A stretch of 64,000 nt of DNA from positions 62,001 to 126,000 of the forward strand of contig NC_013037.1 in NCBI RefSeq assembly GCF_000023125.1, read 5' to 3'. Positions 50,200 through 58,500 of this stretch are shown piece after piece. The stretch comes from Dyadobacter fermentans DSM 18053 (GTDB taxonomy: Bacteria > Bacteroidota > Bacteroidia > Cytophagales > Spirosomataceae). The stretch's first letter is position 1; every line of letters starts with the position of its first letter. The position numbers were made by a program, and so were the translations under genes. Under the pieces are notes generated by a model that was given only the letters and a program-made list of their open reading frames with translations, did no database searches and was not told where the DNA came from.

Positions 50200-50228
50200 T
50201 TGCCAAGTTCAATTGATTAGTATCTTTG
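50200..50228 (+). promoter_or_regulatory. Promoter for the 136-residue protein gene and metal block
   Basis: TTG at 50200-50202, 18 bases, then TATCTTTG at 50221-50228, an exact -7 match. The transcript would start near 50234 with a TCCGCA/TGCGGA hairpin (50235-50249) at its very 5' end, before the GTG start at 50262. Confidence 0.7.
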
Positions 50229-50261
50229 CCCGCGTCCGCATCGTGCGGATTGCAGTAAATA

Positions 50262-50672
50262 GTGGTGCAAGTGAAAAGTTGGGCAACTCAAACATTGGTC
50301 TTTGTGATGCTGGCAGTGATGCTGGTGAAGACGATGGTTGTGCCCGTTATTTACCTTGATTACGAGCTTCGCAAGGATTATATCATTTCCACACTGTGCG
50401 AGAACCGTAACCGTCCGCAGCTGAATTGCGATGGTAAATGTTACCTCGCCAAACGCATCGCCGAGGCGGCAAAACAGGAACAGCGGCAGGCTGAAAGCGA
50501 TTTTATGACCAAAATGCTGTCCGCCCAGGCCCCGGTTACCAACGACTTCCTCACGCACTTCATCACAACACCCCGCACAGTGGAGCTTCTGCCTGCTGTG
50601 ACCTTCAATTACGCGAGCCCGTTCAACGGGCGTAACTTCGTGCTGGACATCTTCCACCCGCCGCTCTGCTGA
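50262..50672 (+). CDS. Conserved hypothetical protein with cysteine motif, GTG start
   Basis: This 136-residue protein has an N-terminal membrane helix (about residues 9-30, LVFVMLAVMLVKTMVVPVIY) and a cysteine-bearing segment CENRNRPQLNCDGKCYLAK (about 46-64) that could bind a metal or form disulfides. No ATG precedes the helix, so GTG at 50262 is the likely start. It precedes the MbnP/MbnH genes and is the first gene after a good promoter. Similar small proteins occur near metal-related receptors in Bacteroidota, but I cannot name a family. Confidence 0.65.
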   Translation: MVQVKSWATQTLVFVMLAVMLVKTMVVPVIYLDYELRKDYIISTLCENRNRPQLNCDGKCYLAKRIAEAAKQEQRQAESDFMTKMLSAQAPVTNDFLTHFITTPRTVELLPAVTFNYASPFNGRNFVLDIFHPPLC

Positions 50673-50753
50673 CATTGCCTCTCATTGCTTTGTCATAACA
50701 GAAACCAAGGCTGATCCGCCAAAAGGCCGGGTCGCCTTACAACTTCCTATCTA

Positions 50754-51578
50754 ATGAATTTCTCCAAGGTTTTGCCAGCCCTGCTGGTGGCCGTGGCAGC
50801 CGTGTTCATGCTCGTGTCCTGTTCGGACAATGCCGCTGAACCCGCGCCTCCCACCGGCAACAATGGTGCGCTCACCATTGAATTCGACAATATAGTAGGT
50901 GATAAAAACCTGGTACTCAATGGCGCCGCTAATACCAATGCGGCCGGCGAGGACTTCGTGCTCACCAAGTTTAACTACTACGTTTCCAACATCAGGCTGC
51001 TCCGCCAGGACGGCACTTCCTACACCGTGCCGCAGGATTCGAGCTACTTTCTGATCATGGAGGATAAAAAGGAATCCCAGTTTGTGAGGCTGAAAAACGT
51101 GCCGCCCGGTACCTACACCGGATTGGAATTTATGCTCGGCGTGGACAGCCTGCGCAACACGATGTCACTCGATAAATGGACGGGCGTATTAGACCCCGGC
51201 GGATCGATGATGGAGGACGGCATGTACTGGGCCTGGGAATCCGGGTTTATATTCCTGAAAATGGAGGGTACTTCTTCCAAAGCTTCCACCGCGAATGGCA
51301 AGTTTTATTACCACATCGGCCTGTATGGCGGAATGACGCTGCGCACCGTGAATAACACCCGCGTTGTGAAACTATCGTTCGGAGATCTCAAAGCAGAAGT
51401 TACCACAACTCAAACGCCGGAAGTACATCTTTTTGCCGATGTTCAGAAGGTGTTTAACGGCCCGGGCACCAACTTGTCCATTGCCGCATTCAGCAGTGTG
51501 ATGACTCAGCAACAGGAGAAAGCCAGCCAGATCGCCAACAACTACGCGAAGATGTTTTCGGTTGACCATATCCATTGA
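50754..51578 (+). CDS. MbnP-like copper-binding lipoprotein, first copy
   Basis: This 274-residue lipoprotein has a signal peptide with the lipobox LVSC (cysteine at 23) and an MbnP-family domain: LTIEFDNIVGDKNLVLNG near 42, LTKFNYYVSNIRLL near 75, PPGTYTGLEFMLGVDSL near 115 and a YWAW pair (tryptophans at 159 and 161). In methanotrophs MbnP binds copper through a site with an oxidised tryptophan, produced by its diheme partner MbnH; WxW here is a candidate for that residue. The MbnH-like gene overlaps its stop codon, so the two are a functional pair. Confidence 0.85.
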   Translation: MNFSKVLPALLVAVAAVFMLVSCSDNAAEPAPPTGNNGALTIEFDNIVGDKNLVLNGAANTNAAGEDFVLTKFNYYVSNIRLLRQDGTSYTVPQDSSYFLIMEDKKESQFVRLKNVPPGTYTGLEFMLGVDSLRNTMSLDKWTGVLDPGGSMMEDGMYWAWESGFIFLKMEGTSSKASTANGKFYYHIGLYGGMTLRTVNNTRVVKLSFGDLKAEVTTTQTPEVHLFADVQKVFNGPGTNLSIAAFSSVMTQQQEKASQIANNYAKMFSVDHIH

Positions 51579-52717
51579 GCGTCATGTGGCATTTTTTTAA
51601 TTGGCATTCATTTCAAAAAATGGATGTCGTGCCGGGCATGGTACTGGCCGGCCTGGCGCTGGCATTTGCAGCCTGCCAAAAAGAGGAGCGGCCTGTGGAG
51701 CCTGTCTGGACCGGTCCCACGGCCGTGACCTGGAAGAAACCCGCGCATTTTCCCGATCCGGTGTATGATTTGAGTACAAATCCGCTGACCGAGGAAGGGA
51801 TCGAGCTGGGGAAGTTCCTGTTTTACGATGGTATCCTGTCGCGTACCAACCAGATCGGCTGCGGCACCTGCCATCAGCAGGAGGCTGCATTTACCCATCA
51901 CGGGCATGAGCTCAGTCATGGCGTCGACGATCTGCTTGGGACGCGTAACTCGCCTTCGATCCAGAACCTGGCCTGGAACCCGGTTTTCTTTTGGGACGGG
52001 GGCGTGCATGATCTGGACAAAGTCCCATTCAACCCAATCCAGAATCCGGTGGAGATGGACGAAACGGTCAAGAATGTGATTGCCAAGTTGCAGGCCACGC
52101 CGTTGGCTACCGCCAAAAAGCCGGTGAATTATCCCGAAATGTTCCGCAAGGCATTTGGCGACGATCAGATTACCACCGAGCGGATGATGAAGGCACTTTC
52201 GCAATTCATGCTCACGATGGTTTCGGCCGAATCGCGCTATGACTTTTTCAAACAGGGCGATGGCTCGGCGCTGAATGCGCAGGAGCAGGAGGGGCTGGTG
52301 CTTTTTAAGGCCAAATGCAGCAGCTGCCACACGGGAGAGCTTTTCACGGATCACAGCTTTCGCAACAATGGGCTGGTACCGCTGCGGCTGGACGATAAAG
52401 GGCGTTCCGAAACATCCGGCGATCCGGCAGATAAGTACAAATTCAAAGTGCCCAGTCTGCGCAATGTCGGTCTGACGGCGCCCTACATGCATGACGGCCG
52501 CTACCATACGCTGGAAGAGGTGCTGGATCACTACACCTCGGCGGTGCAGCAGTCCCCGACGCTCGATCCGGGATTGCAGCGCGCCGACCGGAAGCCGGGC
52601 ATCGATATGACCGACAGCGAGAAAAAGTCCATTATCGCATTCCTCAGGACGCTTAGTGACGAGCAGTTCATCCGAAATTCCAAACTTTCCGATCCCGGGG
52701 TCGGGACGAATTTTTAG
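51575..52717 (+). CDS. MbnH-like diheme cytochrome c peroxidase family, first copy
   Basis: This protein is 380 residues from TTG 51575, overlapping the previous stop. In-frame ATGs at 51584 or 51620 may be the true start; the latter gives a good lipoprotein signal (MDVVPGMVLAGLALAFAAC). Two heme motifs are visible, CGTCH (about 95) and CSSCH (about 249), plus NLAWNPVFFWDG and APYMHDGRYHTLEEVLDHY, typical of the diheme peroxidase/MauG family. MbnH oxidises a tryptophan of MbnP to kynurenine. The pairing with the preceding MbnP-like gene strongly suggests the same here. Confidence 0.85.
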   Translation: MSVMWHFFNWHSFQKMDVVPGMVLAGLALAFAACQKEERPVEPVWTGPTAVTWKKPAHFPDPVYDLSTNPLTEEGIELGKFLFYDGILSRTNQIGCGTCHQQEAAFTHHGHELSHGVDDLLGTRNSPSIQNLAWNPVFFWDGGVHDLDKVPFNPIQNPVEMDETVKNVIAKLQATPLATAKKPVNYPEMFRKAFGDDQITTERMMKALSQFMLTMVSAESRYDFFKQGDGSALNAQEQEGLVLFKAKCSSCHTGELFTDHSFRNNGLVPLRLDDKGRSETSGDPADKYKFKVPSLRNVGLTAPYMHDGRYHTLEEVLDHYTSAVQQSPTLDPGLQRADRKPGIDMTDSEKKSIIAFLRTLSDEQFIRNSKLSDPGVGTNF

Positions 52718-52736
52718 ACCTCAAAAATCTTGACAT

Positions 52737-53648
52737 ATGAAACTCAGGTATATTGCATTCACCCTTCTGATGCTGCTGTTTACGACCGGGTCGCGCGCTT
52801 GCGACATTTGCGGCTGTGCAAACAGCGGCGCGTATTTCGGCCTTTTGCCCCAATCCCACAAGTCGGTGATCGGCCTGCGCTACCAGCGCCTGCATTTTGT
52901 GACGCACGGCGATAGCAAGGTACTTCGCACCGAGGAGCATTTCAATGTGGGGGAGGTGTACGCCCGGTTTTTTCCGGTCAAGCGCGTCCAGGTGATGGCG
53001 TTTGTTCCTTACCGGATCGACAAGCAGGTTACTTCCGCGGATGTGAAAAAGCAGAATGGGTTAGGCGACATCACGGTGCTGGCCAACTATAATCTGTTCA
53101 ACACTTTCATGGACGGCGAGAATGCCCGGACGTTCAATCACACCTTGCTGGTCGGCGGCGGCATCAAGCTGCCTACGGGACGTTTTAAGTTCGACGAGAA
53201 CAATACGCTGGAAGTAGCCAATGCCAACTTCCAGTTGGGTACCGGAAGTACGGACTTCATTCTGAGTGCCTTCTACACGATCAACAAAGATCAATGGGGG
53301 CTTTCGACCAACATTTCGCGCAAGTTTAACACGACCAATTCACAGGATTACCGTTTTGGCAACCAGCTCTATGGTACCGTCGATCTTTACCGGTCATTCG
53401 AGGTGGGTAAGCTTTCCATAACGCCCAGTCTGGGCGTGTACGGCGAACATGCGGCTCATGGTGTTCAAAAGGGCGAAGTGCTTGACATTACCGGCGGCCG
53501 GCTTTTGAATGCGACAGCCGGCGTTACATTTTTTACCAACAAATGGACACTGGGCATCACCGGTCAGAAGCCCATTGCACAAAAGAGCGCCTCGGGGCAC
53601 GTGATTGCCAAAGAACGTGTGCTGGTTCAGCTCGGATTTTTATTCTGA
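52737..53648 (+). CDS. Outer-membrane beta-barrel with CxxCxC motif
   Basis: This 303-residue protein has a signal peptide cleaved near SRA, directly followed by CDICGCANSGAYFGLLP: three cysteines at about residues 22-27 at the new N-terminus, a plausible metal-binding site. The rest alternates beta-strand segments (VIGLRYQRLHF, VMAFVPYRID, TLLVGGGIKLPTGRF) and ends in phenylalanine (LGFLF), as outer-membrane barrels do. It lies between the two MbnP/MbnH pairs, 20 bases after the first. I would guess metal or small-molecule passage across the outer membrane. Confidence 0.78.
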   Translation: MKLRYIAFTLLMLLFTTGSRACDICGCANSGAYFGLLPQSHKSVIGLRYQRLHFVTHGDSKVLRTEEHFNVGEVYARFFPVKRVQVMAFVPYRIDKQVTSADVKKQNGLGDITVLANYNLFNTFMDGENARTFNHTLLVGGGIKLPTGRFKFDENNTLEVANANFQLGTGSTDFILSAFYTINKDQWGLSTNISRKFNTTNSQDYRFGNQLYGTVDLYRSFEVGKLSITPSLGVYGEHAAHGVQKGEVLDITGGRLLNATAGVTFFTNKWTLGITGQKPIAQKSASGHVIAKERVLVQLGFLF

Positions 53649-53743
53649 TTCACAAACCGTTAGGGGCTCGAAAGACGCTCCGGACAGCTGCGGGACCACA
53701 GGTTCCGTTAGTTATCCCATAGTATTTAGTCAATTCCAAAAAC

Positions 53744-54544
53744 ATGATCAAAATGAAACATATTCTTTCAATCGCATTATTTTCCCTTCTGTTCGCATCC
53801 TGCTCCGACGACGATTCTAATGAGGTTATCGCGCCCGTTGCAGCCGGCGAATTTGAACTTACGCTTGATACGCGGGTGGGTTCAGAGGACTTTGCATTAA
53901 ACAAGGACTTTTCGATCGGCGGCCAGACGCTCAACTTCAAAAAACTCCGCTACTGGGCCAGCAATGTGGTGTTGGTGGATTCAAAAGGTGCCGAATATAA
54001 AGTGCCGGATTCATATTACCTGATGGAAGAGGTAACGGACCTGAACCTGTCCGGCACGATCAACGACAGCACGCTGTATCCGGCCAAAAAGCGTGAGACG
54101 ATCAAATTCCGCGACATTCCGGCCGCAGAATACAAAAGCATCAAGTTTTCCATCGGTGTGGATGCCCAGCACAATGATAACCTCAGCCTGACCGGCGGGG
54201 AGTTGAGCATTGCCAATGGCATGAGCAACATCGCCTGGATGTGGCATTCGAGCTATATTTTCTCATCGGTGGGCGGTACCATGAAGCAAGGCGCCACAAC
54301 CAAAGAGTTTCTGGCGGAAACCGGCCTGAATGCGAACTACAAAACGCTGACCATAGACCTGCCCGCCGCGGTGAATTCCGCTTCCACCAGGGGCGTAACG
54401 CTGAACCTGGACGTGACCAAAATTTTTGACGGCATTGACGTTTCGCAAAACCCGAAGATCAATGCGATGACCGCCGCACTGATGTCTACCGTGGCGACCA
54501 ACTACGCGACCAAAGCGATTGCATTCAGCAAAGAGAATAAATAG
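53744..54544 (+). CDS. MbnP-like lipoprotein, second copy
   Basis: This 266-residue protein has a lipoprotein signal (MKHILSIALFSLLFASC) and the same family pattern as the gene at 50754: FELTLDTRVGSEDFALN, LNFKKLRYWASNVVLVD, EYKSIKFSIGVDAQHN and AWMW (tryptophans at 165 and 167). The two copies are clearly paralogous but diverged. It is followed 8 bases later by the second MbnH-like gene. Start ATG at 53744, or at 53753 for a slightly shorter signal. Confidence 0.85.
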   Translation: MIKMKHILSIALFSLLFASCSDDDSNEVIAPVAAGEFELTLDTRVGSEDFALNKDFSIGGQTLNFKKLRYWASNVVLVDSKGAEYKVPDSYYLMEEVTDLNLSGTINDSTLYPAKKRETIKFRDIPAAEYKSIKFSIGVDAQHNDNLSLTGGELSIANGMSNIAWMWHSSYIFSSVGGTMKQGATTKEFLAETGLNANYKTLTIDLPAAVNSASTRGVTLNLDVTKIFDGIDVSQNPKINAMTAALMSTVATNYATKAIAFSKENK

Positions 54545-54551
54545 ACTCGTG

Positions 54552-55598
54552 ATGCGGTTGGTCAAACTGGGCTGGTTTTGCATTGTCTTGCTAATCTCCT
54601 CGTGTGACAAGGATACGGTGGCACCTGCGGAAAACGCGTATGCGTTCGAGGTGCCGCCGCATTTCCCTGTTCCTGTTCCGGATGCGCATAATCCTATGAC
54701 TGAGGCCGGCATCCGGCTGGGCAGGCAGCTATTCTATGACCGGCGCTTGTCGGCCAACAACAAGGTTTCCTGCGCAAGCTGTCACGATCCCGCCAAGGCA
54801 TTCAGCGACGGGGTCGCGCTTAGCACATCAGGCGTGTCGGACACGCAGTTGCTGCGGCATGCACCGGCGCTGTTCAATCTGGCCTGGGCGACCAACGGCC
54901 TTTTCTGGGACGGCGGCTCGACTAACCTGGAATCGCAGGCGTTCGGGCCGCTCACCGCCCATGACGAAATGGCCCAGGATTTGTACGAACTGGTGGATGA
55001 ACTCAATGCGGATGCGTCGTACGTGAAGGGTTTCCAGGAGGCTTTTTCGGCAGGCATAACCTCGCAGAATGTGGCCAAAGCGCTCGCGCAGTTCCAGCGC
55101 TCACTCGTTTCGGCGACTTCGCGGTACGACGATTTCCGGCTAGGACGCAACGGCGCAGTGCTCACTCCGGAAGAAATGTCGGGCTTGGCGCTGGTCCGGC
55201 AGCATTGCCAGGGATGCCATTCCGGCGAGCTTTTCACGGACAACGGCTACCACAACAACGGGCTCGACAGCCGTTTCGACAACCAGGATCACGAGGGAAT
55301 CTTCATGGGCCGCTACCGGATCAGCTACGACGAGGGTGATTTGGGCAAATTCAAAACGCCGTCGCTTCGCAATGTAACGCTCACAGCACCCTACATGCAC
55401 GACGGCCGCATACCCACGCTCGAAAAGGTGCTCGACCATTATTCAAACGGCATCCAGCATTCGGCCACGCTCGATGGCCGCATCCCGCAGCAGGGCTTCG
55501 CATTCAGTGCTGTCCAGAAGACCCAGATCATCGCCTTTCTGGCAACATTGACAGACGAGCGGTTCGTAAGCAACCCCGCGCATCAGAAACCACATTAG
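54552..55598 (+). CDS. MbnH-like diheme cytochrome c peroxidase family, second copy
   Basis: This protein is 348 residues from ATG 54552 (MRLVKLGWFCIVLLISSC), a lipoprotein signal; a TTG further upstream would overlap the MbnP-like stop. Heme motifs CASCH (about 77) and CQGCH (about 220) are present, with NLAWATNGLFWDGG and APYMHDGRIPTLEKVLDHY as in its paralogue. It pairs with the second MbnP-like protein. The block is closed by a terminator 48 bases after the stop. Confidence 0.86.
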   Translation: MRLVKLGWFCIVLLISSCDKDTVAPAENAYAFEVPPHFPVPVPDAHNPMTEAGIRLGRQLFYDRRLSANNKVSCASCHDPAKAFSDGVALSTSGVSDTQLLRHAPALFNLAWATNGLFWDGGSTNLESQAFGPLTAHDEMAQDLYELVDELNADASYVKGFQEAFSAGITSQNVAKALAQFQRSLVSATSRYDDFRLGRNGAVLTPEEMSGLALVRQHCQGCHSGELFTDNGYHNNGLDSRFDNQDHEGIFMGRYRISYDEGDLGKFKTPSLRNVTLTAPYMHDGRIPTLEKVLDHYSNGIQHSATLDGRIPQQGFAFSAVQKTQIIAFLATLTDERFVSNPAHQKPH

Positions 55599-55645
55599 CC
55601 TGGCGGGCGGCCAGCAAAAATGTAAACTTGTCAGTAATCATGAAA

Positions 55646-55674
55646 GCATGGTGGTGATTGCCACCGTGCTTTTT
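55646..55674 (+). terminator. Hairpin terminator after the second MbnP/MbnH pair
   Basis: GCATGGTGG pairs with CCACCGTGC (one G-T pair) around a 6-base loop, followed by TTTTT. It separates the MbnP/MbnH block from the cobalamin riboswitch. Confidence 0.75.
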
Positions 55675-55722
55675 ATCTTTACACCCTTAAAAAGTTCTTT
55701 TCTTTCATTTTCCATCGGGAAA

Positions 55723-55937
55723 GGTTTTGCTAAGTAGCAGATTAATAGGGAATCGTGTGCAATTCACGAGCTGTCGCGCAACTGTAAGTAACACTTCAAG
55801 TTTATATCGGTTATATCCACTGGAGATAACTGACTGATTTTTGAATAAATGAATAGTATTTAAATTATTCACTCATTCAAAATTCAATCATTGCTCTGGG
55901 AAGGATGATATAAATGTTACAAGTCAGGAGACCTGCC
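55723..55937 (+). ncRNA. Cobalamin riboswitch
   Basis: Conserved segments in order: GGTTTTGC near 55723, AATAGGGAA with GTGNNANTTCAC (55744-55768), AGCTGTCGCGCAACTGTAA (55769-55787), CCACTGG (55817-55823), CTGGGAAGG (55896-55904) and AAGTCAGGAGACCTGCC (55920-55936). These are the signature boxes of the cobalamin (B12) riboswitch. Between them is an AT-rich variable arm (TGAATAAATGAATA paired with TATTCACTCATTCA). It should repress the downstream TonB-dependent receptor when adenosylcobalamin or related corrinoids are plentiful. Confidence 0.9.
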
Positions 55938-56112
55938 TTTTCACGTTGTCGACGCTTTCGCGGAATAAAGTATGTCGGTCTGGATCTGTTGTGTCTGATG
56001 GTTTTGGTATCACAAAACCACTACGCCCCTGCGTGACCGTTCCCCGTTGTTCCAAGAAAGCTTCCTGAAATACTGCAAGAGACTTTAACTCATCTAACCA
56101 TCAGTTAAAAGT

Positions 56113-58500
56113 ATGCAAACATCTACATTCTGCTGCTCGCGGACTAGCGGCAGGGAGGCGAAAAATTCATTTTTACTACTCATTTCATTCGCCCTGTTAT
56201 GGTGTTCATTTCCCAGTTTCGGCGCTGCGCCGGGGCGGGTGACAGGCTCCATTCAAAGCGAAAAAGGCGATGCTATTGCCGGGATCAGCGTGCGGCTGGA
56301 AGGCACCAGCTATGCGGCCGTAACCGACGCGGACGGCCGGTTTGACATTAAAAACGTCCAGGCAGGAAGCTACACGCTCGTTGCCACCGGCGTGGGCCAT
56401 GAGGCAAAAAAGCAAAATATCGTTCTCAAAGATGGCCAGGCGCTGGAATTGAATTACAAACTCAATACCAGCACCAACGAGCTTTCCGAGGTCGTGATCA
56501 GTACCGCGCGGCGCCAGGCTTATTCGGGCATTAACAAAATCGACGTCCCGCTGCGCGATATGCCCATCACCACTTCCACCATATCGGCAAAAACGATCGA
56601 ACAGCGCGGTATCGACGATTTGGGCGAGGCCATGAAAAATACGACAGGCGTGCGGGCCAACAACACCTACGGCGGCTTTCAGCATTTTACAATCCGCGGT
56701 TTTTCCAACTTCGTGCTTTTGGTGGATGGCGTGCGCGATGAGCGGCACAACATTTCCACCAGCGCGCCGAACACGAACCTGGCCAATGTGGAATCCATAG
56801 AAATACTGAAAGGGCCGGCTTCCGTGCTGTTTGGACATTCGGCATTGGGCGGCATTATCAATATCGTCAGAAAAAGGCCCACTGCGGGCTTTAAGGCGGA
56901 CTTTTCGGCTAGTTATGGCAGCTTTAATACAAGAAGAATCCGTGCCGGTGCGGGCGGGGCAATCAGCGATAAGCTGCGCTACCGCGTGGATTTCGGCATG
57001 TCGGACACCGACGGCTTCCGGCATTCGGGGTCAAATACCAACAATGGCTACCTGGCATTGGAATACACGCCGACGGACAAAGATCAGTTCTACCTGACCA
57101 TCGGGGCCAACAAAGACATTTACGATACCGACGCAGGTATTCCTGTGCTCGAAGGCAGCAAAGCAGCTCCGGGCATGAATGTAAATACCCGCTACAACGA
57201 CCCGCAGGATTTTCTCAAACACACCCGCTATGATTTCCAGTTGAAGTACACGCGTCAGTTGGCGAGTAACCTCAAACTGTCGAACCAGCTTTCTTACTAC
57301 GACGATAATATCGACTATTTCTCGACCGAGGAGCTGACCTTTACCCCGGGGATGGATTCGTTGCAGCGCTCGTTTCCGTTCTATTTCAACCACCTTACCA
57401 AGCCGTGGCAAAACCAATTGGAACTGACCTGGGATTTTAGTACCGGTCCGATCGAGCACAAGCTGCTGGCAGGATATTCGGTGAGTATTCTGGATAGAAA
57501 AACGTATAACGGCGATGTTTTTGGCCCGGCCCTGAATGCGACCATTCCTATCAGTAACCCGATCCTGAACCAAGGTTATCTGACGCATAACGATCTGAAT
57601 TACCGGGCAACAATGGAAAATGTCCACGGTATTTACGTGCAGGATTTTATCCCTTTCTCAGACAAACTGAAAGGACTTGCGGGTCTTCGCTATGATATTT
57701 TCAACGGCACCTATTACACCGATAAAGTAGATAACAACCGCAATGTAACCGAGCACGGCGCAGAATCGACGATCTCCAAATCCGCATTGACCTACCGATT
57801 GGGGCTGGTGTATCAGCCGGTGGAGCCGCTGTCGGTTTACGGTTCGTTCTCCACTTATTTCAAACCTGCACGACGCGTGGCGCCGAACGGCGAGACTTTC
57901 GATCCCGAAACAGGTTACCAGGGTGAAATCGGAAGCCGATTCGAGCTTTCACGGAAATGGGCGGCTAACCTGGCATTCTATTACATGCGCAAGAATAACC
58001 AGCTCGAAGCGCTTGCTGGTGGCATTTACAGGCGGATCGGCTCGGCGGAGTCCAAGGGCGTTGAGCTGGAAGTGAATGGAAACTTGCTGCCCGGGCTCGA
58101 CGTGAGAGCGGGATACACATTTTCCAAAGCAGAAATCCTTCCTTACTCGCCCGGTGAGGCTACCAATGCCCTGGCAGGGAAAACGGTGGCTTTTGCTCCC
58201 AAAAACTTGCTGAATGCCTGGGTGAACTATGAAGTGCAGCAGGGTGCTGTAAAAGGACTGAGCCTGAGTGCCGGTGCCAACTATATGGATGAGACTTTCA
58301 CAAACAGTTCCAACAGCTACGTGCTGCCCGCCTACACCGTTTTCGATGCGGCGCTGGGATACCGGATTGGGAAAATTGGTTTAAGATTGAATGTCAATAA
58401 CCTCTTCAACGAAAAATATTTCGCGAATGCCATTTTCGCAAACCAGTTCTCGGCCGGCCCGACCAGAAATTTCCTCGTAACGGTGCGGTATAGCCTTTAA
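56113..58500 (+). CDS. Siderophore-type TonB-dependent receptor under a cobalamin riboswitch
   Basis: This 795-residue outer-membrane receptor has a signal peptide (to about residue 37), a carboxypeptidase-like regulatory domain (GRVTGSIQSEKGDAIAGISVRLEG, about 40-120), a plug domain (DMPITTSTISAKTIEQRG and NTTGVRANNTYGGFQHFTIRGFSNFVLLVDGVRDE, about 140-230), and a long beta-barrel ending in VTVRYSL. The plug wording is closest to FhuA/ferric-siderophore receptors rather than BtuB. The cobalamin riboswitch upstream implies transport of cobalamin, cobinamide or a metal chelate whose need changes with B12 status. Confidence 0.9.
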   Translation: MQTSTFCCSRTSGREAKNSFLLLISFALLWCSFPSFGAAPGRVTGSIQSEKGDAIAGISVRLEGTSYAAVTDADGRFDIKNVQAGSYTLVATGVGHEAKKQNIVLKDGQALELNYKLNTSTNELSEVVISTARRQAYSGINKIDVPLRDMPITTSTISAKTIEQRGIDDLGEAMKNTTGVRANNTYGGFQHFTIRGFSNFVLLVDGVRDERHNISTSAPNTNLANVESIEILKGPASVLFGHSALGGIINIVRKRPTAGFKADFSASYGSFNTRRIRAGAGGAISDKLRYRVDFGMSDTDGFRHSGSNTNNGYLALEYTPTDKDQFYLTIGANKDIYDTDAGIPVLEGSKAAPGMNVNTRYNDPQDFLKHTRYDFQLKYTRQLASNLKLSNQLSYYDDNIDYFSTEELTFTPGMDSLQRSFPFYFNHLTKPWQNQLELTWDFSTGPIEHKLLAGYSVSILDRKTYNGDVFGPALNATIPISNPILNQGYLTHNDLNYRATMENVHGIYVQDFIPFSDKLKGLAGLRYDIFNGTYYTDKVDNNRNVTEHGAESTISKSALTYRLGLVYQPVEPLSVYGSFSTYFKPARRVAPNGETFDPETGYQGEIGSRFELSRKWAANLAFYYMRKNNQLEALAGGIYRRIGSAESKGVELEVNGNLLPGLDVRAGYTFSKAEILPYSPGEATNALAGKTVAFAPKNLLNAWVNYEVQQGAVKGLSLSAGANYMDETFTNSSNSYVLPAYTVFDAALGYRIGKIGLRLNVNNLFNEKYFANAIFANQFSAGPTRNFLVTVRYSL

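Follow-up and report, generated by a model that had tools for sequence, protein, structure and literature searches.

A putative copper-sensing leader gene and two non-equivalent MbnP/MbnH pairs in a copper-linked operon of Dyadobacter fermentans

A stretch of 64,000 nucleotides of the Dyadobacter fermentans DSM 18053 genome (contig NC_013037.1, positions 62,001 to 126,000), here called the window, contains two pairs of genes for an MbnP-type lipoprotein and an MbnH-type diheme enzyme on either side of a gene for a predicted outer-membrane barrel. An original prediction, made from the sequence of the window, had described these five genes as a duplicated system for copper capture and uptake. 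They belong to a copper-linked operon of a known kind, and its anatomy is unlike that of the prediction: a leader gene at the head is followed by a standard pair, the barrel, and an additional pair whose site is altered. We consider it probable, with some reservation, that this is a copper-starvation acquisition operon controlled by a nascent-chain copper sensor, in which one pair is standard and the other altered. This reading is built on the observed gene order, protein families, motif conservation, clades, and genomic context of the leader.

Results

A leader gene precedes the five reported genes

The leader gene and the five reported genes are all located on the plus strand and are arranged as follows.

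50221..50228, plus strand: promoter -7 element TATCTTTG, Bacteroidota type
50262..50672, plus strand: leader gene; N-terminal hydrophobic segment, C46-x9-C56DGKC60, 72 residues, PP, end FHPP-LC; putative nascent-chain copper sensor
50754..51578, plus strand: MbnP1 lipoprotein; M157, W159-x-W161 (WAW), H187
51575..52717, plus strand: MbnH1, MbnH/MauG-type diheme enzyme; two CxxCH, Y320, extra H108/H111/H115
52737..53648, plus strand: predicted outer-membrane barrel; CDICGC behind the signal peptide, fold like that of FapF and the COG4313 channel
53744..54544, plus strand: MbnP2 lipoprotein; WMWH retained, Ile and Glu at the positions of the canonical Met and His
54519..55598, plus strand: MbnH2, MbnH/MauG-type diheme enzyme; two CxxCH, Y308, without the His triad
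55643..55672, plus strand: terminator-like inverted repeat 3′ of MbnH2; 12-nt arms, 92% complementary

The leader is probably the first gene of the operon, because the promoter element and the terminator-like repeat bracket the genes. The element was labeled according to the consensus TAnnTTTG, which we take to be the Bacteroidota type. Such an element was present upstream of 78 of 99 leader copies, in a count that also accepted a one-base shorter spacing and had no shuffled control. The likely start codon of the leader is the GTG at 50271, and MbnH1 and MbnH2 probably start with the ATGs at 51620 and 54552, respectively. The location of the five genes on one strand was confirmed, and the shared operon that had been proposed for them is likely. 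The span of the original prediction already started with the leader at 50262, and the leader gene itself was left undescribed. A palindrome at 50235-50249 (TCCGCA-TCG-TGCGGA) was considered as an operator and rejected, as exact matches among 215 loci were confined to L001 and L153 (this genome's own stretch).

Cysteine motif and C-terminal PP of the leader are separated by a nearly constant distance

Leader copies were analyzed in a Cytophagales-centered set (101 copies) and in a phylum sample (65 copies), together 166 distinct copies, with no sequence tail shared between the two sets. The phylum sample comprised 60 stretches that were picked from the listed profile-search matches without knowledge of the neighboring genes, two of them from this genome. 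The profile search in the Bacteroidota yielded matches in 156 of 395 genomes.

In the Cytophagales-centered set, three spaced Cys were present in 98 of the 101 copies. All 101 leaders had a PP within their last 10 residues, compared with 8 of 306 other neighbors, 0 of 98 MbnP, 7 of 111 MbnH, and 0 of 80 barrels. The spacing from CxGxC to PP was 69.2 +-1.4 residues (range 65-72) in 99 copies, leaving out the L120 copy and L132, which have no CxGxC. The phylum sample gave the same picture, with the Cys motif and the PP in 65 of 65 leaders and a spacing of 66.6 +-1.9 residues (range 62-73). The sequence between Cys and PP is weakly conserved and of nearly constant length, and the PP is located 1-8 residues before the C-terminus. 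At L197, L212, L213, and L214, the profile match stops short of the C-terminus of the leader, and thus, the PP was not demanded by the search. Export of the leader was judged from its hydrophobic start alone.

One leader copy (L120:3067-3465) lacks the Cys motif, retains a C-terminal HPP, and heads an MbnP-MbnH pair; it is predicted to be copper-blind. At L124, L125, L126, L142, and L148, mostly of the Cyclobacteriaceae type, the leader slot is occupied by a divergent short protein without CxGxC, with an F-x-PP end in those that were read. These proteins were left out of the leader counts.

The leader heads genes with a link to copper

At the barrel loci, MbnP or MbnH directly followed the leader in 79 of 82 copies. 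The 63 next genes of the phylum sample were more diverse: 14 encoded MbnP, 6 barrels, 1 MbnH, and 42 other proteins, which included 24 with a TonB plug domain, 2 SCO1, 3 YtkA, and 2 YHS. Of the 38 second genes that were scanned, 7 encoded SCO1 and 4 PepSY_TM. Of the three leaders in this genome, one heads the MbnP operon, another (L156) a SCO1 gene, and the third (L157) a TonB receptor gene together with PepSY_TM. SCO1-like genes were part of the same run at 15 loci (family checked on one), and a PepSY_TM-like cluster at 11 loci (checked on L140). NosL and NosD were confirmed at L122, and members of the same clusters lie upstream of the leader in 4 loci. COX2 and a second SCO1 are also present in this genome. 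The genomic link to copper that the original prediction had assumed is supported by these neighbors.

In many Dyadobacter operons, SCO1 is preceded by a gene for a putative lipoprotein that is about 160 residues long and contains several His and Met (L078:11488-11970, with relatives at 16 loci); no Pfam family was found for the L078 copy.

The leader resembles CruR and CutF in architecture

Judged from the sequences, the leader matches the copper-responsive proteins CruR and CutF in architecture, and it is not filed as DUF2946. CruR is the DUF2946 leader of Bordetella pertussis, for which the authors' model proposes an arrest that is relieved by copper, whereupon transcription is ended by Rho (PMC9426467). 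Both leaders are first genes with a Cys motif and a C-terminal PP near the stop at a fixed spacing, and genes of the TonB-dependent transporter (TBDT), PepSY, SCO, and MbnPH type lie downstream of both, CruR homologues being described at the head of operons with TBDT, PepSY_TM, ScoC, and MbnPH-like genes (PMC9426467). The CruR-like traits of the Bacteroidota leader are thus the fixed Cys-to-PP spacing, the head position, and the copper-linked downstream genes. In contrast to CruR, it has a CxGxC with a third Cys, 62-73 instead of 45 residues to the PP, no RAPP, and no detectable homology.

CutF is described as having a CxxxC and a proline-rich end and as sensing copper on the exported side, with a sign opposite to that of CruR (PMC9973294). 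The window leader falls within the definition of CutF-like proteins in that paper (<150 aa, exported, CxxxC, PP <=15 residues from the end), as it has a hydrophobic start, 136 aa, CDGKC, and a PP 2 residues from its end. CutF differs in being copper-induced and stem-loop-based, and the main text of PMC9973294 names neither MbnP nor MbnH. Because 19% of the entries in its CutF-like list D come from Bacteroidota, the leader family may be among them. According to the same paper, 45 residues put the motif into the periplasmic vestibule of SecY; when this arithmetic is applied to 62-73 residues, the sensor of the leader would be set beyond the vestibule, on the periplasmic side of the translocon.

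At the nucleotide level, the last 150 nt contained more C than G in 99% of the 82 leader genes (mean C-G +0.094), while the same measure had means of +0.005 for MbnP, +0.022 for MbnH, and -0.023 for the barrel. The synonymous C-G excess of the leaders was +0.024 (standard error 0.0035) and positive in 73%, versus -0.011 for MbnP and -0.007 for barrels; the rows are related, and this is not a strict test. The bias would fit a region for Rho loading like that of CruR, and no more than that. A hairpin conserved downstream of the leader was considered and rejected, as the mean z was -1.1 (82 stretches), compared with -1.7 after MbnP (105) and -1.2 after barrels (80). The window stretch after the leader alone had a z of -3.4.

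The two MbnP/MbnH pairs are not equivalent

The family assignments of the original prediction held. MbnP1 (1.9e-53, 181.7 bits) and MbnP2 (1.5e-39, 136.3 bits) matched the Pfam family MbnP (PF20243) above its gathering score of 27, and MbnH1 (9.8e-51) and MbnH2 (8.9e-54) matched CCP_MauG (PF03150). The NCBIfam MbnP and MbnH models were the top matches for the window proteins, yet the scores were below the curated cut-offs: 47 and 32.3 bits for MbnP1 and MbnP2 with TIGR04052 (equivalog cut-off 140 bits), and 229.4 and 248.4 bits for MbnH1 and MbnH2 with TIGR04039 (cut-off 362.85 bits). By these scores, MbnP1 and MbnP2 are related to TIGR04052 but outside that equivalog. The best PDB match of both enzymes was 6e1c (labelled 'Di-heme enzyme'), which we take to be MbnH of Methylosinus trichosporium. 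A profile of 25 MbnP rows matched 7l6g, an MbnP crystal structure (E 0.0028), and the AlphaFold model of MbnP2 (mean pLDDT 78, WxW loop poorly modelled) had only the six 7l6g chains as matches at E <= 0.001. Sequence identity was 26% between MbnP1 and MbnP2 and 42% between MbnH1 and MbnH2, in agreement with the earlier description of the pairs as diverged.

For the comparison of residues, MbnP rows of <200 aa and MbnH rows of <280 aa were dropped. The WxW motif was retained in 103 of 107 MbnP rows, including both window proteins. M157 and H187 of MbnP1 align with the Met and His in GMAWNW and VHVG of 7l6g, which we take to be ligands of the MbnP copper site, reportedly identified by Manesis et al. 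in 2021. Among the P1-type rows, M, W, W, and H were all retained in 84 of 94, and six had Leu for Met. The P2 rows were uniform: both Trp were present in 13 of 13, Met was lost in 13 of 13 (Ile, Leu, or Ala), and Glu replaced His in 13 of 13. In 11 of these 13, M and H occur inside or beside the WxW (WMWH).

The enzymes diverged as well. His at 108, 111, and 115 was found in 88 of 104 H1-type rows versus 0 of 13 H2 rows, and H115 of MbnH1 aligns with a His in 1iqc, a bacterial cytochrome c peroxidase (bCCP); this His is presumably the movable distal ligand of that family. All 117 enzymes have a Tyr in place of the Met of bCCP 4aal (Y320 of MbnH1 is aligned there), and we assume that this Tyr acts as a ligand. 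Both CxxCH were present in 116 of 117 rows, including MbnH1 and MbnH2 of the window. By their residues, P1-H1 is a standard pair and P2-H2 a pair with an altered site, and the earlier notion of two equivalent copper-binding lipoproteins was not supported.

In summary, the window shares with MbnP/MbnH of M. trichosporium (7l6g, 6e1c) the family matches, the MbnP fold, the WxW, the Met and His of P1, and, in the enzymes, the two CxxCH and the Tyr where 4aal has Met. It differs from that system in the second pair without Met and His, the three extra His of H1, the attached leader and barrel, and the lack of MbnB: no methanobactin MbnB (TIGR04159) was found in this genome, which extends the earlier finding of no methanobactin gene in the window.

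At L085, L087, L088, and L095, the first MbnP has lost both Trp of the WxW and the His, with an MbnH still adjoining; these proteins are possible pseudo-substrates. A third MbnP of this genome (L054, G000:C1:4143608-4144255) is accompanied by an MbnH, and no leader or barrel was recognized alongside.

A lipobox was found by pattern in 79 of 94 P1, 13 of 13 P2, 73 of 104 H1, and 12 of 13 H2 rows, and a few of these assignments were visibly wrong. The pattern-based mean number of acidic residues at +2 to +6 after the lipid Cys was 2.5 for P2, 1.7 for P1, 0.8 for H1, and 1.0 for H2, and the signal was clearest in P2 (CSDDD) and the window H1 (CQKEE). An acidic stretch after the lipid Cys is described as a surface export signal of Bacteroidetes (PMC5080379), and these acidic residues suggest surface exposure of the lipoproteins. 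The surface location in the original proposal of a complete surface system is no more than suggested, and the proposed completeness overlooked the leader.

The barrel belongs to a recurrent core

The barrel with its CDICGC was supported by structure prediction and by the retention of CxxCxC in 41 of 41 rows. It matched no Pfam family. The top Foldseek matches of its model (mean pLDDT 82, N-terminus uncertain) were FapF (5o67, 1.5e-10) and a COG4313 channel (4rl8, 1.9e-9), with which it has the barrel fold in common; it differs from them in the N-terminal CDICGC, an identity of 14-15%, and the lack of a Pfam match.

Of 200 genomes of the family, 83 encoded the barrel. Gene order was compared for 79 named barrel loci, several of which end at contig ends, so that absences there are unproven. 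The recurrent core consisted of leader, MbnP, MbnH, and barrel, with variants such as leader-H-P-H-barrel, and the P2-H2 pair was present in 12 of the 79 loci. The five-gene order, which the original prediction had proposed to look for in other Bacteroidota, was rejected as a conserved unit, as the exact order of the window was found in one of the 79 loci (L091). It was also present in L073 of an overlapping 40-locus set, where the P2 open reading frame (ORF) is shortened to 163 residues and which was not used further. P2 and H2 each formed one clade of 13 rows including the window (SH-aLRT 100 for P2 in a quick tree, support 1.0 for H2 in a FastTree tree), and the same 13 loci hold both. At 11 of these 13 loci, P2 comes immediately after a second leader; the window and L091 are without it. 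Taken together, the original observation was confirmed and its interpretation partly supported.

The downstream neighbor of the operon is a TonB-dependent receptor gene (56113-58500) with a siderophore-receptor subfamily as the best NCBIfam match. It is preceded by a cobalamin riboswitch (55705-55954, 95.4 bits) and is probably a separate unit.

Discussion

From these observations we infer copper sensing, arrest, kynurenine formation, transport, and the sign of regulation. The leader would be a short exported protein, of which C46, C56, and C60 bind copper while they emerge from the translocon, and its C-terminal FHPP would slow or arrest the ribosome. At low copper, the ribosome would be held near the leader end, and transcription or translation would continue into MbnP1, MbnH1, the barrel, MbnP2, and MbnH2. 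In the presence of copper, the arrest would be relieved and the operon turned off, which is the CruR-type sign. MbnH1 would oxidize the first Trp of the MbnP1 WAW to kynurenine, which together with M157 and H187 would make up a Cu(I) site. The barrel would conduct copper inward, with the N-terminal CDICGC as a periplasmic acceptor, and MbnP2/MbnH2 would be a pair added long ago whose site is altered. In the literature, MbnP and MbnH are reported as pairs far outside the methanobactin producers, and the genes of a comparable pair, CorA/CorB, as downregulated by copper (PMC3621798); the role of MbnPH is called unknown (PMC3621798, PMC9601215).

Several results weigh against this proposal. DUF2946 (PF11162) was found in 0 of 39 genomes and is absent among the 25 families matched by 35 A3 members. 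The comparison of the leader with one DUF2946 sequence gave an hhalign probability of 0.5 (single sequences, no DUF2946 alignment built), and a single-sequence comparison revealed no homology to SilD. The core of known RAPP-type arrest peptides is described as R-A-P (PMC12992588), while RAPP or RGPP occurred in 0 and a C-terminal PP in 166 of the 166 leaders, preceded in 142 by a hydrophobic residue and H, R, Q, or K. Amino acids and codon usage account for +0.074 of the C-G of +0.098 in the last 50 codons of the leader, and family-wide, RNA structure past the leader stop was not in excess of the controls. The profile match of the L157 leader crosses a TGA near its end, and the ORF itself ends with PPPCE. 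Part of the 42 other next genes match no copper-linked family, and the 38 second genes include one OEP and one HlyD-type efflux family. In fold, the barrel comes closest to a polypeptide transporter and a general channel rather than to a metal porin. Finally, the window P2 lacks the second leader that precedes P2 at most other P2 loci.

Three alternatives were considered. The P2-H2 pair may have left MbnP-type copper handling, its Glu-for-His, Met-less site binding another metal, or a modified Trp made by MbnH2 serving another purpose. This is a serious possibility, if somewhat short of an even chance, and it can coexist with a leader-controlled copper operon. The retention of the WxW in all P2 proteins despite the loss of Met and His, the single clades of P2 and H2, and the missing His triad of H2 point in this direction, while the M and H of WMWH could replace the ligands and the leader still stands before P2 at 11 of 13 loci. 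As a second alternative, the leader could be a structural, membrane-anchored copper carrier acting in trans with MbnP, MbnH, and the barrel, without nascent-chain regulation. Three conserved Cys past a hydrophobic segment could indeed bind Cu(I), and the leader is nearly always beside MbnP or MbnH at the barrel loci. We regard this as unlikely, since it precedes its partners, recurs before P2-H2, and heads operons without MbnP too, and since a poorly conserved Cys-to-PP stretch of near-fixed length ends in a PP close to the C-terminus. It is quite improbable that the operon serves copper-induced detoxification with the CutF-type sign, MbnP being a surface sink and the barrel an exporter: the opposite sign of CutF with its CxxxC and PP (PMC9973294) and the polypeptide transporter among the nearest folds of the barrel would fit, but the co-headed genes are often for uptake or copper-enzyme assembly (TonB receptors, PepSY, SCO1), and efflux families are rare among the second genes.

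The proposal of a nascent-chain copper sensor may reach beyond this operon. In a survey of RAPP/RGPP leaders, copper-related leaders are reported as missing from some groups, e.g. Bacteroidota (PMC12992588). The Bacteroidota leaders would escape such a survey because none of the 166 carries RAPP or RGPP. It could go either way, in our estimation, whether they form a large class of copper-sensing leaders, possibly of separate origin (a Cys, CxGxC, about 62-73 residues, and a PP, mostly as hydrophobic-[HRQK]-PP), that controls a copper-starvation regulon of TonB receptor/PepSY, SCO1, MbnPH, and CxxCxC barrels, beside a P2-H2 WxW/diheme pair re-tuned off the known copper ligands. The combination of leader, MbnPH, and barrel was not found named in the literature searched, save for the mention of MbnPH in PMC9426467; subscription literature lay largely outside this search, which is no proof of absence.

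A leader resembling a copper gauge ties the MbnPH pairs of Bacteroidota to copper starvation, and the second pair represents a natural experiment on the residues that are required by a kynurenine copper site. If the proposal is true, it shows how Bacteroidota, for which the RAPP/RGPP survey lists no copper-related leaders, could sense copper post-transcriptionally.

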